Shown piece by piece: positions 190 through 6,340 of a DNA stretch of 64,000 bases (position 1 is the stretch's first letter; each line of letters opens with the position of its first letter). The notes under the pieces were generated by a model. The model was not told where the DNA came from. It was given only the letters and a program-made list of their open reading frames with translations, and ran no database searches. The position numbers were made by a program, and so were the translations under genes. Source of the DNA: Leucobacter chromiireducens subsp. solipictus (GTDB lineage Bacteria > Actinomycetota > Actinomycetes > Actinomycetales > Microbacteriaceae); contig NZ_QYAC01000002.1 of NCBI RefSeq assembly GCF_016758195.1, positions 1 to 64,000 of the forward strand, written 5' to 3'.

Positions 190-981
190 ATGCTCAGCAT
201 CGAACGGATCGACAAGACGTTCTTCCCCGGCACCGTCAACGAGCGTAAGGCGCTCGTCGACCTGAGCCTCGACATGGCCGAGGGCGACTTCGTGACCGTG
301 ATCGGCTCGAACGGCGCGGGCAAGTCCACGCTGCTCAACGCGATCGCGGGCCGCTACACGGTTGACGCGGGCGCCATCGAGATCGATGGCAAGCGCGTCA
401 ACCGCCTCCGCGAACACCAGCGCGCCCGCTACGTGGGCCGCGTGTTCCAGGACCCCATGGCGGGCACCGCACCGGACCTCACGATCGAGCAGAACCTCGC
501 CCTCGCGGTGCGCCGCGGTCGCTCCCGGGGTCTCGCTCTCTCGCTGACCCGGGCGCTGCGTGAGCGTTTTCGGGAGGAGCTCACCTCGCTCGAACTGGGG
601 CTGGAGAACCGCCTCACGGCGAAGGTGGGATTGCTGTCGGGTGGGCAGCGGCAGGCGTTGTCGTTGTTGATGGCCGGGTTTACGCAGCCGCGGATCCTGC
701 TGCTGGATGAGCACACGGCGGCGCTGGATCCGCAGCGTGCGGCGCTGGTGACGGATCTCACGGAGCGGATCGTCGCCCAGGGTGGGCTGACGACGCTGAT
801 GGTGACGCACAACATGGAGCAGGCGCTGAAGCTCGGCAACCGACTGATCATGATGCACGAGGGCCGGATCGTGTTCCAGGCCTCGGCGGAGGAGAAGCAG
901 CATCTGACGGTGCCGCAGTTGCTCGCCGAGTTCGGCAAGATCAAGGGTGCGCAGCTCGACGACCGTGCCCTGCTGTCCTAG
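190..981 (+). CDS. ABC transporter ATP-binding protein (COG1101 type)
   Basis: A 263-residue ATPase that would power the importer whose permease ends just upstream. Visible motifs are Walker A GSNGAGKST (about residue 37), signature LSGGQRQ (about 149), Walker B ILLLDEHTAALDP (about 167) and the switch His in VTHNMEQAL. The LLDEHTAALDP form is typical of COG1101, the ATPases of COG2984/COG4120 importers for small organic solutes. The ATG is preceded by GGGAGGT at good spacing; an upstream in-frame extension would overlap the permease and is Arg-rich, so it was not used. The binding protein should lie left of the window, and the substrate cannot be read from the sequence. Confidence 0.85.
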   Translation: MLSIERIDKTFFPGTVNERKALVDLSLDMAEGDFVTVIGSNGAGKSTLLNAIAGRYTVDAGAIEIDGKRVNRLREHQRARYVGRVFQDPMAGTAPDLTIEQNLALAVRRGRSRGLALSLTRALRERFREELTSLELGLENRLTAKVGLLSGGQRQALSLLMAGFTQPRILLLDEHTAALDPQRAALVTDLTERIVAQGGLTTLMVTHNMEQALKLGNRLIMMHEGRIVFQASAEEKQHLTVPQLLAEFGKIKGAQLDDRALLS

Positions 982-1044
982 CGGGCGCCCGAGGCTGCGG
1001 GTGCCCGGGTCACCGCGATGGTGCGTCCCGGGGCGCTCCCGGAT

Positions 1045-1131
1045 TCACGAACGCCTCGGAGATCCTGCGGCGCTGTGGCTTTAGATTCCTCATGTCTCCG
1101 TGTTCTTCGTGAATCTCCTAGGGTTTGGTGA
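1045..1131 (+). repeat. Dispersed palindromic repeat A, copy 1
   Basis: Begins TCACGAACGCCTCGGAGATC and ends with CTTCGTGAATCTCC plus a partial second copy of the same arm. The two ends are inverted repeats of each other. It is one of five copies in this window (also near 1341, 34691, 40565 and 40773), all intergenic and all in the same orientation. No coding function is seen. Confidence 0.75.
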
Positions 1132-1151
1132 CCCGTGGACTGAGCCCTGGC

Positions 1152-1242
1152 ATCGAGCATCGAGCATCGAGCGCCGAGCGCCGAGCATCGAGCATCGAGC
1201 ATCGAGCATCGAGCATCGAGCATCGAGCACCGAGCACCGAGC
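1152..1242. repeat. Tandem heptamer array (ATCGAGC, 13 units)
   Basis: Thirteen perfect-length 7-bp units in a row: nine read ATCGAGC, two GCCGAGC and two ACCGAGC. The array lies between repeat A copies 1 and 2 in the 576-bp gap after the ABC transporter. Since 7 is not a multiple of 3 the array is unlikely to be coding. Such arrays commonly vary in copy number between strains. Confidence 0.9.
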
Positions 1243-1340
1243 CGGGGCTTTGGGCTGGGGCTCGGTTCTGGGATTCGGGCTGCTTTCTGGCCCTGTACCT
1301 CGGAGTGTGCTCAGCGGGTGGCGCCTTCGTGGCCCCGGCC

Positions 1341-1427
1341 TCACCAACGACTCGAAGATCCTGCGGCGATGTGGCTTGAGGGGCTCGGAATCTCCGTGAT
1401 CTTCGTGAATCTCCGTGGTTTTGGTGA
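1341..1427 (+). repeat. Dispersed palindromic repeat A, copy 2
   Basis: A diverged copy of the family described at 1045. It starts TCACCAACGACTCGAAGATC and ends with two tandem versions of the arm GAATCTCCGTG-N(4-5)-TTCGTGA. The interior (CTGCGGCGATGTGGCTT) matches copy 1 rather than the GTGCCGGATCCGGC core of copies 3-5, so copies 1 and 2 form a local subfamily. Confidence 0.7.
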
Positions 1428-1557
1428 CCGGGGGTGGGGCTTCCACGCCGGGCGGGACGTGGGCCGCGGACCGGGGCACCCAGAGCGCGAGCCGAGAGCT
1501 CGCTGAGGACCGGCGCGCGCTCCCGGCAGGGACCGAGACGAACCCTACAGTGGAGGC

Positions 1558-4500
1558 ATGACTGCCCCCACGTCCCCCCAGAGTTCGGCTTGGTCTGCGG
1601 TCGCGGACGCGGCGGAAGCGCGCGCGAACGCGTGGCTGGGAGAGCTTCGTTCACGCGAGGCCGGGGGCCAGCGCGCCCCGCTCGGAGACATGCGCCGGGA
1701 TCCCGAGGGCCTCGACTTTACGCGCCGACTGCTCGAGATGGTGGCCGGCACCGAGGACGCATTCGCCTCGGCTGTGGGGCTGCACGATGTCGCCCAGGCC
1801 GCACCCGCCACCATGGGGCTCCGCGACAAGCTGGCGCTGCGCGCCGGCGGGGTGGCCTCCCTCGGGCTGCCCTGGGCCGTCATGCCCGTGGCGCGGCGCT
1901 GGCTCCGGGCGCGACTCTCAAGCCTCGTGCTCACGGCAAAGTTGCCCAACCCGGGCCTCGATGATGATTCGACCCCGGGCGCACTCACCGCGCTCGCCAG
2001 CGGCGTCCGCCGCAGCCGCGATTCCGGTCTCACCCCGATCGTGGTGCCTGTGGGCGGCGCCGTGCACGGCCCCGAACGCGCCGCCGCCGAGGTCCGCCGC
2101 CTCGCTGCCCTCGCCGCGCATCCGACGGTGACACACCTCGCCGTGGATCCTGCCCGACTCGTCCCGGGCGGCACTGACTGGTCCGCGGACGCCGATGTCG
2201 CCGCGGCCGCCGCCGCACTGCAGCCCATCCTCGCGGCCGCCGCAGACCACGGCTGCACGATCCACGTCGAGCCGCGCAGCGTGCGCTGGGCACGTCTGAT
2301 CCCGGCGGTGCTCGCGCGAGCGCTCGGGGATCAGGCGCTGGATCGCGTGCGCATCGGCACCCGCGTGTTTGCCGAGCTGCCCGAGTCGCGTGAGCTCTAC
2401 GACCAGCTCAGCCGGTGGGCTCAGCGCCGGGTCGCCGAGGGCGGTGCTCCCGCCGAGATCGTGATCGGTGAGGCGCGCGTGGCGGGTGTCGAGCGGATCG
2501 CGGCGATTCTGAGCGGGCTCCCGGTCCCGGTGCTTGAGGGCCGTACAGAAGTGACCGCGCAGCTGCTGCGCCTCGCCGAGCTCGCCCTGCATCCGGGCCG
2601 CGCGGCGGTGCTCCGGCCGGTCGTCGAGAGTGAGGACCCCGGCGTGCTCGCCGCGGTCGCGGAGCTCGCGGCGGAGCGCGGCCTGAGCGAGCTGGTGTCC
2701 GTGCAGCTTCGGAGCGGCGTGGTTCCCGGTCTCGCCGAGACCGTCGCGGAGAGCGGGCTGGACACTCGGATCGCGCTGCCGGTCGTGGCGCCGAGCGAGT
2801 TCGCGGGCGCGGTCGAGCTGCTCGTGGGTCTCGCGGCGGAGGCCGCGGATCCTGAATCCGCGTCGTCACGGGTGGACGCCCTGCTCCGAACGCTCGGCGA
2901 GGGCGATCCCGCGGCGGCTGCGTCCGACGCTGACGCCGCTGCGACCGATGATCACGACCCCGAGACCGGTGGTGACACTGAGCCCGGTGGTGATCCCGAG
3001 CCCGATGGCGACCTCGATCCGGTACCGGTCTCCGCGTCCGGCCCTGAACAGGCCTCCGCCCCCGATCCGGCGCGAGATTCGGTGCCCGATCCGACCGCCG
3101 CCTCCGACCCCGTGTGGGCGCCTCTGCGCTCCGCGATCGCCGCCACCCACGACCCCGCGCCGGTGTCGCACCGCACGCAGCTGCGGGCCCGCGAGTGGGA
3201 TCCCAGCGAGCGCGACAGCGCGTTGTTCTACCGCGCGCCGGACGAGCCCACCCGGTTCGATACGGGGGGACTCACCGCGGCAGTGTTGGGCCTCGGCCGA
3301 GACGCGACGGGCGCGATCCAGCTGGAACCGCTCGCCCCGGAACCGCTCGCGATCCCCGTGGTTTCGGAGTCTGGCTTCGCGAACGAGCCGGGAACCGACG
3401 CGAGCCTCCCCGCAAACCGGGAGTGGGCGCGGGAACAGCTCCACCGGGCCCGAGACCGGGCCGCGCGCGAGGACGCGGTGAACGAGACGGTGGCGCTGTC
3501 TGCCGCGGATCTCGATCCGGAATTGGCCGCGCTCACGGCGCGCGAATCCGGGGAGCGGTGGGCGCGGCACGGGCACGCGGCGCGCGCGGTGCGTCTGCGG
3601 CGGGCGGCGTTGGCGATCGTCGCCGCGCGGGATCGAATGCTGAAGGAGCTCGCCGGCGACACGGGGGCGCCGATCGCGGAGCTCGACGCTCAGGTGAACG
3701 ACATCGTCGACGCGGCGCGCTACGCCGCCCAGCTGGCGGAGGGGCTCGGTACGGTGCGCGGCGCGACCTTCGTGCCCGACCGGCTACTGCTCGTGGTGGC
3801 CGACGCGGGGACGCCGCTCGCGCAGCAGGCAGAGGCGGTGTTCGCGGGGCTGGGCGCGGGCAGCGCCGTGCTCTGGGCGGTGCCGCAGGCCCTGCTCGCC
3901 TCCGCGACGGCGCTCATCGAGGAGGCCGAGGCCGGCGGGCTGACCCCCGGGGCGGTGCGGATCGAGGCCATTGCCGTGGGGCGCACGGTGGCGGAGCTTG
4001 CGGCACACCACGAGATTGATCGGGCGATCGCGTTGGGCGACCGGGGCGCCGGGCAGGATCTTGCGCGTCGGCGGCCCGATCTGCGTATCGAGGGCCAGTT
4101 CCGTGCGCGCGGCAGCATTCTGGTCGCGCCATCGGCGGACCTGGATCAGGCGATCGCCGATACCGTGGCGTCCGCGTTCCACGCGGCGGGCGCCGATCCA
4201 CGGGCCGCGCACCAGCTCATCCTGATGGGCGGGGTGGGCCGGTCGCGCCGCTTCCAGGCGGGCCTCGCCGATGCGGTGCGCGCGCTCCGCGTCGGCGACT
4301 CTGCGCGCCCCGGCACCGCGGACCCGCTCAGCTTCGATCTCGGACCGCTGACCGCGCCGCCCTCCGCGGCGGGGCTGCGCGCGCTCACCGAACTCGGGCG
4401 CGGTGAGGAGTGGCTCGTCGCCCCGGAACAGCTCGACGACGAGGGCCGGCTGTGGCGTCCCGGCATCCGCACCGGCGTCGCGGCCGACTCGCCGTTCTGG

Positions 4501-5463
4501 GCGGACGCGATCGGGGTGCCCGTGCTCGGCGTCACGCACGCGCACTCGCTGGTCGACGCGCTCGCGGTGCAGAACGCGAGTGGCGGCGGCAGCGTGGCCG
4601 CGCTGCACTCCAACGATGGCGAGGAGGCGGTGGCCTGGCTCGAGCAGGTCCACGCCGCCGCACTGGCGGTGAACCGGCCCACGACGGGCGCACGAATCGA
4701 GCGCCAGCCGGGCGGCGGCTGGGACGATGCGGTGATGGGCGTTCCCGCGCTCGGGGGCGGGCCCAATCGACTTCTCGCGCTCGGATCGTGGACTCCGCGC
4801 CCGGGCACCCGGAGCGAGACCCTGCACCTGCGCGGCCTCGACCCGGAGGTGCAGCTGCTCATCGCTGCCGCTCAGCCGAGCCTCGCCTACGAGGCGTTCG
4901 ATGAGATCCGCCGCGCCGCGCTCACCGACGCGCTCGTGTGGCGCACCCGATTCGGGCGGGAACGCGACGCGATTGGGCTCGGTATCGAGCGCAATGTGTT
5001 GCGGTACCGGACCGTGGTGACGCACATCCGGCTCGCGGAGGACGGGCCCATGGCGGGCCTCATCCGTGTGATCGCCGCGGCATTGCTGGTGCGCGCGCCC
5101 ATCGCGGTGTCCACGGGGCAACTGCTGACCGTCGAGCTCGCGGAGCTGCTGGAGCGTCAGGGTATCGAAGTGTCGCTCGAGCGTGACGAGGATTGGATGG
5201 AGCGCCTCGCCGTCTCCGGGCCGCTCGGGCCCGCCGAGATTCCCGCGGCGCGGCTGCGCCTCATCGGTGGCGACGCCGTGCGTGTGGCGGAGTGGATGGG
5301 GGGCCTTGACCGCGCGGCGCTCTGGGCCGAGCCGGTGACGATGGCCGGCCCGGTGGAGCTCCTCACGCTGCTGCGCGAGCAGTCGGTGTCCGTCCGCGCA
5401 CACCGCCACGGTCTCGCGATCCCCGCTCCGGGGCTTGACGCGATGCTCGAGCTGGGGGTCTGA
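1558..5463 (+). CDS. PutA-like protein with degenerate proline dehydrogenase and P5C dehydrogenase domains
   Basis: A 1301-residue protein laid out like actinobacterial bifunctional PutA without the DNA-binding domain. Residues about 1-430 follow the proline dehydrogenase barrel (ending ALPVVAPSEFAGAVELL, cf. the usual PVGEFDVAI). About 440-540 is an Asp/Pro/Glu-rich linker. From about 590 (FANEPGTDASLPANREWA) to 1301 it follows a P5C dehydrogenase. Framework motifs survive (SADLDQA, NRPTTGARIERQPGGGW, GGPNRLLALGSW), but the catalytic Cys motif AGQKCSA reads AGADPRA (Pro881). The ETSGKN Glu motif reads QFRARGS, with Phe848 at the Glu position in an ungapped alignment. The flavin/proline-binding motifs of the barrel are also unrecognisable. 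I infer a pseudoenzyme, with a structural or regulatory role or a new activity. The ATG has GTGGAGGC upstream. Confidence 0.75.
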   Translation: MTAPTSPQSSAWSAVADAAEARANAWLGELRSREAGGQRAPLGDMRRDPEGLDFTRRLLEMVAGTEDAFASAVGLHDVAQAAPATMGLRDKLALRAGGVASLGLPWAVMPVARRWLRARLSSLVLTAKLPNPGLDDDSTPGALTALASGVRRSRDSGLTPIVVPVGGAVHGPERAAAEVRRLAALAAHPTVTHLAVDPARLVPGGTDWSADADVAAAAAALQPILAAAADHGCTIHVEPRSVRWARLIPAVLARALGDQALDRVRIGTRVFAELPESRELYDQLSRWAQRRVAEGGAPAEIVIGEARVAGVERIAAILSGLPVPVLEGRTEVTAQLLRLAELALHPGRAAVLRPVVESEDPGVLAAVAELAAERGLSELVSVQLRSGVVPGLAETVAESGLDTRIALPVVAPSEFAGAVELLVGLAAEAADPESASSRVDALLRTLGEGDPAAAASDADAAATDDHDPETGGDTEPGGDPEPDGDLDPVPVSASGPEQASAPDPARDSVPDPTAASDPVWAPLRSAIAATHDPAPVSHRTQLRAREWDPSERDSALFYRAPDEPTRFDTGGLTAAVLGLGRDATGAIQLEPLAPEPLAIPVVSESGFANEPGTDASLPANREWAREQLHRARDRAAREDAVNETVALSAADLDPELAALTARESGERWARHGHAARAVRLRRAALAIVAARDRMLKELAGDTGAPIAELDAQVNDIVDAARYAAQLAEGLGTVRGATFVPDRLLLVVADAGTPLAQQAEAVFAGLGAGSAVLWAVPQALLASATALIEEAEAGGLTPGAVRIEAIAVGRTVAELAAHHEIDRAIALGDRGAGQDLARRRPDLRIEGQFRARGSILVAPSADLDQAIADTVASAFHAAGADPRAAHQLILMGGVGRSRRFQAGLADAVRALRVGDSARPGTADPLSFDLGPLTAPPSAAGLRALTELGRGEEWLVAPEQLDDEGRLWRPGIRTGVAADSPFWADAIGVPVLGVTHAHSLVDALAVQNASGGGSVAALHSNDGEEAVAWLEQVHAAALAVNRPTTGARIERQPGGGWDDAVMGVPALGGGPNRLLALGSWTPRPGTRSETLHLRGLDPEVQLLIAAAQPSLAYEAFDEIRRAALTDALVWRTRFGRERDAIGLGIERNVLRYRTVVTHIRLAEDGPMAGLIRVIAAALLVRAPIAVSTGQLLTVELAELLERQGIEVSLERDEDWMERLAVSGPLGPAEIPAARLRLIGGDAVRVAEWMGGLDRAALWAEPVTMAGPVELLTLLREQSVSVRAHRHGLAIPAPGLDAMLELGV

Positions 5464-5613
5464 GGGGTTTCCCGCGAGGCTCCCTGCTCCCTCGCGAGGC
5501 TCCCACGCTTCCCGCGGCGCCGAGATCGCGATCAGGCACCGAATCGCCCCGAGAAACGTGCCGGATCGCGTTCTCCTGCGCGCGCTGACCGGGCTGGGGT
5601 CGTGAGGGGCGGG

Positions 5614-6078
5614 TCAGCCCCGGCGCATCGGGGTGTGCGGGATCGCGTCCTCGAGAAACTCGGGCCCGCTCGTGACGAAGCCGAAGCCCGCGTACCACTC
5701 GGTGAGGTAGGACTGAGCGTGAATCAGGACCGGGTGCCCCGCGCACTCCGCGAGCGCCGCATCGAGCAGGGCAGCGGCGACCCCGCGCCCGCGCCATGCG
5801 GAGGCCGTCGCGACACGCCCGATCGAACGCAGCCCGAGCTCCTGGTGGTCCTCGGGGAGCACGCGAAGGGTGGCCGCGACCTCGCCCCGGGCACCTTGCG
5901 CCCAGAACTGCACGGCCCCGGCGTCGAGGTCGCGGCCGTCGAGATCCAGGTAGGCGCATTCCTGCTCTACCACGAAGACCTCCTGGCGCAGCCGGCCGAT
6001 CCCGTAGGCGATCCGCGCGGGGACGCCCTCCCACGTTGCAGCGGAGTGGAGGGTCAGCTCGGGGGGAAGTACGCGCAT
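5614..6078 (-). CDS. GNAT family N-acetyltransferase (ElaA-like)
   Basis: A 154-residue acetyltransferase. The acetyl-CoA binding loop is seen as RVATASAWRGRGVAAALLDAAL (about residues 87-108), and the family-typical N-terminal RQEVFVVEQECAYLDLDGRDLD and C-terminal YAGFGFVTSGPEFLEDAIPH segments match the ElaA subgroup of small GNATs. It transfers an acetyl group from acetyl-CoA to an amine; the acceptor is unknown. It is monocistronic, convergent with the gene to its left, and sits between the PutA-like gene and the tRNA. Confidence 0.85.
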   Translation of the reverse strand: MRVLPPELTLHSAATWEGVPARIAYGIGRLRQEVFVVEQECAYLDLDGRDLDAGAVQFWAQGARGEVAATLRVLPEDHQELGLRSIGRVATASAWRGRGVAAALLDAALAECAGHPVLIHAQSYLTEWYAGFGFVTSGPEFLEDAIPHTPMRRG

Positions 6079-6206
6079 ACCTCGATCCTGCCACGGGCCC
6101 GCGGCGCGCGCGAAAATCCAGGGGGCTGGCCCGGGCGGCGAAGTCGATTTCCGTTCACGCCGCGGAGCCGGTAAAGTTTACTCCTGGTCGTGTTCACGCG
6201 ATCTTT

Positions 6207-6288
6207 GGCGGATTACCCGAGCGGCCAAAGGGGGCTGACTGTAAATCAGCTGGCACTGCCTACGGGGGTTCGAATCCCTCATCCGCCA
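6207..6288 (+). tRNA. tRNA-Tyr (anticodon GTA)
   Basis: An 82-nt class II tRNA. The acceptor arms GGCGGAT and ATCCGCC pair perfectly and A is the discriminator. The anticodon stem-loop GCTGA-CTGTAAA-TCAGC puts GTA at 6241-6243. A long variable arm (TGGCACTGCC) and the T loop GGTTCGAATCC are present. CCA is not encoded. A hairpin terminator follows within about 10 bp. No integrase or duplicated tRNA end was seen nearby. Confidence 0.95.
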
Positions 6289-6298
6289 CAGTAACGAA

Positions 6299-6340
6299 GA
6301 CCCGGACACTGTTGAGAAATCAGCAGAGTCCGGGTCTTTG
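6299..6340 (+). terminator. Rho-independent terminator after tRNA-Tyr
   Basis: GACCCGGAC and GTCCGGGTC form a 9-bp stem around a 20-nt loop, followed directly by TTTGTCGTT. It lies 10 bp past the tRNA end, as expected for a single-gene tRNA unit. Confidence 0.8.

Follow-up and report, generated by a model that had tools for sequence, protein, structure and literature searches.

What function could preserve the gene for a PutA-like protein from which the residues of both PutA active sites appear to be lost? PutA joins a proline dehydrogenase half and a Δ1-pyrroline-5-carboxylate (P5C) dehydrogenase half, the latter of the aldehyde dehydrogenase (ALDH) superfamily, on one chain. The question is raised by a gene in the 64,000-nucleotide stretch analysed here (the window), positions 1 to 64,000 of contig NZ_QYAC01000002.1 of Leucobacter chromiireducens subsp. 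solipictus. A preliminary description, made from the letters alone, had proposed a pseudoenzyme that kept the PutA shape, and at the level of sequence our analysis supports that proposal. The gene probably encodes a PutA-derived pseudoenzyme that has been remade as a non-catalytic scaffold or sensor and would act together with a YbhB/PEBP protein, a GntR regulator and often an ATP-binding cassette (ABC) importer. The gene and the parts of its product, referred to below as pseudo-PutA, are:

1558..5463, plus strand: pseudo-PutA gene, a 1301-codon open reading frame (ORF) encoding 1301 amino acids, with ATG at 1558 and a stop codon ending at 5463
1600..2874, plus strand: proline dehydrogenase-derived half, residues 15-439, active-site motifs lost
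2875..3156, plus strand: linker stretch, residues 440-533, acidic and of low complexity, with a length that varies among relatives
3172..3300, plus strand: conserved linker block, residues 539-581, RTQLRAREWDPSERDSALFYRAPDEPTRFDTGGLTAAVLGLGR
3466..4776, plus strand: P5C dehydrogenase (ALDH)-derived half, residues 637-1073
4096..4098, plus strand: Gln847 codon, by alignment at the position of the general-base Glu
4198..4200, plus strand: Pro881 codon, by alignment at the position of the nucleophile Cys
4795..5460, plus strand: C-terminal domain, residues 1080-1301

The protein is 135 kDa in size with an isoelectric point of 5.0, and it contains one Cys in all (residue 233). An 18-bp tandem repeat (2956-3012) lies inside the acidic linker stretch.

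A PutA homologue apparently without either active site

Homology to PutA was found in both halves of the protein. The PutA structure 5ux5 matched residues 20-434 (independent E-value 2.1e-24) and residues 674-1167 (1.1e-72); a third match, to residues 1229-1286, was not significant. We take 5ux5, a chain labelled PutA, to be the enzyme of Corynebacterium freiburgense (CfPutA) and the nearest solved structure. Residues 245-436 alone recovered it at 1.9e-12. Among the Pfam families, Aldedh matched the window protein (5.8e-34) and Pro_dh gave no match to it at E 1. When a profile of the first half built from pseudo-PutAs only (20 sequences) was aligned with one built from canonical PutAs only (12 sequences), hhalign returned a probability of 100% and an E-value of 5.5e-43 over 412 columns. 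Because this alignment spans 412 columns, the proline dehydrogenase half is, as judged from sequence, complete in length and in register with canonical PutA. The statement in the preliminary description that this half keeps only its ends was thus too strong; its active-site motifs are what is lost. One profile search with the pseudo half included canonical rows and is not an independent test, as the 5ux5 matches of the whole protein and of residues 245-436 are. In NCBIfam 26 families were matched, and among the 25 listed none scored above its curated cut-off (best 75.3 bits against 659.65); the window protein stayed below the curated cut-offs of the P5C dehydrogenase and PutA families. A search of the plasmid collection returned no record that covered 80% of the query in one place.

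A canonical PutA, which the preliminary description had suggested looking for, was found elsewhere in the window's genome (G000:C6; L034 / L106) with all scored motifs intact. Its homology to the window protein covers both halves plus the C-terminal region up to residue 1293, with identities of 27% (proline dehydrogenase half) and 37% (remainder). In SmPutA, Cys844, Glu810 and Asn707 are named as the working residues of the ALDH site, and Lys265, Tyr473, Arg488 and Arg489 as proline-binding residues (PMC12398946). Compared with the intact G000:C6 enzyme, the ALDH half of pseudo-PutA has Pro881 for the Cys (AGADPRA for AGQKCSA), Gln847 for the Glu (QFRARGS for ETSGKN) and Gly751 for the Asn; in the proline dehydrogenase half the Lys is replaced by Glu305, the Tyr by Ala406 and the Arg pair by Gly424-Leu425. 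The replacements at 881 and 847 had already been read from the letters, and the alignment confirmed them. The SmPutA residues were assigned to alignment columns by motif, in part from recall, and we assume that these assignments hold. The Lys and Glu of the ALDH motifs, to which we presume a role in the NAD (nicotinamide adenine dinucleotide) pocket, are also lost.

The same sites are altered across the pseudo-PutAs. Sites were scored in an alignment of 121 rows, from which L103 and L104 (shorter than 900 amino acids) and the duplicate L034 had been dropped beforehand; the relative L041 was scored apart from the pseudo and canonical rows, and the pseudo-PutA L099, with the same scored residues as L040, stands outside the 40 pseudo-PutA rows counted here. 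The Cys, Glu, Asn, Lys and Tyr were each kept in 0/40 pseudo-PutA rows, the first Arg in 3/40 and the second in 1/40, although some rows are near-copies or possibly from the same organism and are not independent cases. All seven residues were present in 79/79 canonical rows. Among the features expected of a functional PutA, pseudo-PutA therefore shows the register of the proline dehydrogenase half and lacks the Lys, Tyr and Arg pair as well as the ALDH Cys, Glu and Asn. An active-site Cys located elsewhere in the protein was also looked for: the most shared Cys column among the pseudo-PutAs comprised 8/40 rows, and three of the 40 had no Cys at all. Because the window protein has a single Cys and the best column reaches only this number, the thiol does not seem simply to have been relocated. 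With the ALDH Asn, the NAD-pocket Lys and Glu, and the proline dehydrogenase Lys, Tyr and Arg pair lost, it is unlikely that either flavin adenine dinucleotide (FAD) or NAD is bound in the old manner.

Retention and selection

A protein of about 1,300 residues that appears dead at both ends of a two-site metabolic enzyme is nevertheless found in every genome of the genus that was searched: relatives were present in 54/54 Leucobacter genomes, with at least 48% identity in the best segment. In some draft genomes the match stops near a contig edge. The matches in G001, G003, G015 and G018 each pass through one stop shortly before the query ends; in three of these four, read as loci (L015, L030 and L033), the open frame reaches residue 1294-1298. 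Pairwise ratios of nonsynonymous to synonymous substitution (dN/dS) were 0.045-0.136 in the 14 closest pairs of 21 chosen pseudo-PutAs. Selection on the protein, previously deduced from the long open frame and its composition, is thus supported by retention and by substitution rates. Mean identity over 136 genome pairs with both genes was 0.653 for pseudo-PutA and 0.808 for canonical PutA; purifying selection on pseudo-PutA is evident, yet less strong than on the enzyme, since it is the less conserved of the two over these pairs. By its sequence, pseudo-PutA is a pseudoenzyme, an enzyme homologue whose catalytic residues are lost and which is kept by selection.

A scan of named species genomes with patterns built from pseudo-PutA motifs returned 41 loci, of which 37 are from Leucobacter and two from Canibacter; the remaining two belong to an 'Actinomycetota bacterium' and a 'Microbacteriaceae bacterium'. 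Sites were scored in 6/41. Among 150 genomes of the family Microbacteriaceae, matches of at least 46% identity outside the genus were found in four (G099, G103, G140 and G172); family genomes with matches that were not retrieved as loci were judged by identity alone and not by sites.

Conservation was compared among 38 pseudo-PutAs (L011 and L016 excluded), 23 family canonical PutAs and 25 genus-type canonicals, five of them from other genera. Over the full length it was lowest in the pseudo-PutAs (0.64 against 0.71 and 0.74). Around the nucleophile it was 0.55 in the pseudo-PutAs against 0.97 and 0.99 in the two canonical sets, whereas in the linker around residue 552 it was 0.94 against 0.30 and 0.02, and around residue 1263 it was 0.95 against 0.79 and 0.91. 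The linker block (residues 539-581) contains the segment with the greatest excess of conservation in pseudo-PutAs over family canonical PutAs, and residues 1232-1275 (5251-5382) of the C-terminal domain are among the most conserved stretches in the pseudo-PutA clade. At 28 positions one residue is fixed (at least 90%) in the pseudo-PutAs and a different one in the family canonicals. In sequence terms, constraint has shifted from the active sites to the linker and the C-terminal domain, a pattern that we read as re-specialization and not as decay.

Origin of pseudo-PutA and a half-dead relative

In a tree of 76 proteins, 22 chosen pseudo-PutAs formed one clade (SH-aLRT 100). Its sister was L041 (100), a protein from another genus of the family (genome G071), and both belong to a larger clade of 42 (100) in which the remaining 19 rows were family PutAs. 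Fourteen of the 15 canonicals from the genus and from relatives bearing pseudo-PutA fell in a different clade, where they grouped with L161 of Paenarthrobacter and three more rows (99) and with L160 of Arthrobacter (88); the fifteenth, L131 of G071, was placed elsewhere. A mixture-model tree of 48 rows separated the pseudo-PutAs plus L041 by one branch (100) and a set of ten canonical rows by another. An origin of pseudo-PutA as a duplicate of the genus's own PutA was rejected when pseudo-PutAs were forced together with these ten canonicals (approximately unbiased test, p-AU 0.000248), although this test is subject to the same attraction between long branches as the model and is to be read with caution. 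According to these trees, pseudo-PutA branches inside the PutAs common in Microbacteriaceae, and the working PutA of the genus belongs to another lineage.

L041 has a linker block similar to that of pseudo-PutA, which the G000:C6 enzyme does not have. Unlike in pseudo-PutA, the Lys, the Tyr and the first Arg are still present in its proline dehydrogenase site, and it matches Pro_dh with 160.8 bits. Its second Arg is Gln, and its ALDH Glu, Cys and Asn are Gln, Pro and Glu, respectively. Judged by these residues, L041 looks like a surviving half-way state. Genome G071 also holds an intact PutA, L131.

Relation to the working PutA

In the window's genome the pseudo-PutA and canonical PutA genes are on separate contigs. 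Across the genus, canonical PutA was detected (E 1e-120) in 45/54 genomes and not in 9/54; among genomes with completeness of 90% or more and contamination of 5% or less it was present in 39/45. Six of these good genomes lack it (G001, G015, G022, G025, G047 and G052), and all six keep pseudo-PutA. In three of them, G001, G015 and G025, whose assemblies are single contigs, a search with the Pro_dh family gave no match; in the other three (G022, G047 and G052) the sole match lay inside pseudo-PutA itself. The same search of G000 and G020 returned their canonical PutA. Because these six genomes keep pseudo-PutA without a canonical PutA or another Pro_dh match, it is unlikely that the protein acts only as a partner of PutA, and the earlier suggestion that it might partner or regulate a true PutA loses weight. 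Since pseudo-PutA is under selection even in species without a working PutA, a new, non-enzymatic job is probable.

On contig C1 of both G017 and G012, canonical PutA was matched in two separate pieces. In G017 each piece has its own open frame (792 and 514 amino acids); in G012 the frame has 1337 amino acids and the match lacks its middle.

Gene neighbourhood

The gene upstream of pseudo-PutA in the window encodes the ATPase of an ABC transporter:

190..981, plus strand: ABC transporter ATPase, ORF listed from 103, start at 190 by comparison with relatives

This ATPase begins the contig, and a GntR gene, a PEBP gene, a binding protein gene and a cut permease gene were found at the end of contig C10 of the same genome. 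We examined 43 pseudo-PutA loci, of which 37 had at least 2 kb of upstream sequence. A divergent GntR/FCD gene was present in 26/37, a PEBP/YbhB gene (PF01161) in 24/37 and an ABC ATPase within 2.5 kb in 19/37. With GntR and PEBP genes commoner than the ATPase, the ABC importer was set aside as the core neighbour. The ATPase gene lies between the PEBP and pseudo-PutA genes in 14 loci, and in L069 the cassette comprises a PF04392 binding protein and a PF02653 permease. At L156, L101, L095 and L090, where no ABC ATPase was seen, 78-118 bp separate the end of the PEBP match from the pseudo-PutA match. No GntR, PEBP or ABC genes were found at ten other PutA loci (L034 and L146-L154, all but L154 site-checked), nor at L157, the L041 locus; the neighbourhood of pseudo-PutA thus differs from that of PutA.

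At L067, L069, L071 and L072 the pseudo-PutA gene is preceded by two permease-ATPase pairs of an ABC importer in tandem. Repeated importer genes of this kind may explain why the window contig starts inside the cassette.

Proposed role and alternative explanations

A second PutA, catalytically intact and from a different PutA lineage, would have come into the lineage, presumably by transfer, and the older copy would thereby have been freed from catalysis. The ALDH residues and the second substrate Arg would have been lost first, as in L041, and the rest of the proline dehydrogenase site after them. The present protein would be a non-catalytic binding scaffold or ligand sensor, with a contact surface that may include the linker block (residues 539-581) and residues 1232-1275 of the C-terminal domain. 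It would act with the neighbouring YbhB/PEBP product, presumably made from a common transcript, under the divergent GntR/FCD regulator; in many species the ABC importer, whose genes lie between the PEBP and pseudo-PutA genes, may be a further partner. In its full form, in which a PutA was freed by a second-lineage PutA, died in steps of which one survives and is now a non-catalytic hub with YbhB/PEBP under GntR, so that these proteins would be the first PutA pseudoenzyme family, the proposal is plausible but tentative.

Several observations weigh against this proposal. Pseudo-PutA evolves about twofold faster than canonical PutA (mean dN 0.279 against 0.137 over the 136 genome pairs) and was the more conserved of the two in only 5/136 pairs. 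Three of the 54 genus genomes (G012, G021 and G031) have broken-looking frames, which may be sequencing errors or real losses, and G058 is without pseudo-PutA although another member of its genus (G140) carries one. The stem of the pseudo clade is long (0.84), which makes its placement less sure, and the GntR, PEBP and ABC ATPase genes are all absent at 3/37 loci (L073, L085 and L086). Finally, we infer the scaffold role, the link to YbhB and the order of loss from sequence comparison.

A different catalytic site could have arisen on the PutA framework, and the 28 positions fixed for a new residue, several Arg and Trp among them, together with the many invariant charged residues of the linker block, would suit a new enzyme; against this stand the lack of any conserved Cys among pseudo-PutAs and the loss of the ALDH and proline dehydrogenase residues and of the presumed NAD-pocket pair, and we regard it as unlikely. 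A role as partner or allosteric regulator of genuine PutA, for example in mixed oligomers, appears improbable as well. Both proteins occur in 45/54 genus genomes, and residues of the RxP-G-W and GGP motifs, towards the end of the ALDH half, show no variation among 31 pseudo-PutAs of one alignment, but the six good genomes without PutA, the descent of the two proteins from different PutA lineages and the placement of their genes on different contigs in the window's genome argue against it.

Explanations in which nothing new has evolved fare worse. That the protein is an ordinary PutA with misaligned motifs and active residues elsewhere might be suggested by its low identity to the genome's own PutA; this was rejected on the near gap-free alignment around the sites and on the Cys counts, and has very little chance of being right. 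A decaying pseudogene with a chance open frame is the least credible reading of all. The high G+C content favours long frames on other strands too, and the three broken-looking frames would fit decay, yet the frame in the window is intact, relatives are retained in 54/54 genomes with dN/dS far from 1, and the linker block is more conserved than in intact enzymes.

Relation to known systems

CfPutA (5ux5) aligns with the window protein over both halves; pseudo-PutA differs from it by the missing catalytic Cys, Glu, Asn, Lys and Tyr and by its own conserved linker block. Human ALDH16A1 is described as a pseudoenzyme of the ALDH superfamily that lacks the catalytic triad and is thought to be kept for other roles (PMC10650815). 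In pseudo-PutA the loss appears to concern two active sites, unrelated to each other, on a single chain. ALDH16A1 is not known to have a proline dehydrogenase half, and pseudoenzymes are mostly discussed as single catalytic domains. Our search of the open-licence literature turned up neither a paper about a PutA pseudoenzyme nor one about proline dehydrogenase in Leucobacter; dead ALDHs are already known, and within that literature a PutA that is apparently dead at both sites was not found. Because a half-dead relative survives and the working enzyme is missing in some genomes, the order of loss and the shift in selection are directly open to study. The case is also a warning against naming such genes PutA. 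YbhB genes are described as rarely found in conserved gene associations (PMC8793217), and the association with pseudo-PutA provides a testable context for this family; if true, it would be a rare clue to a partner of bacterial YbhB proteins.

Other features around the gene

The gap between the ABC ATPase and pseudo-PutA genes is 576 bp, a longer distance than in most relatives that have this neighbour. It contains a 7-bp tandem repeat (GCATCGA, 13.3 copies, window 1150-1242). Promoter and terminator scans of window 950-6300, with a sigma-70-type consensus only, found nothing. Downstream, a GNAT acetyltransferase gene (window 5614-6078, minus strand) is convergent with the pseudo-PutA gene, and a relative of it lies downstream on the opposite strand in 21/43 pseudo-PutA loci.

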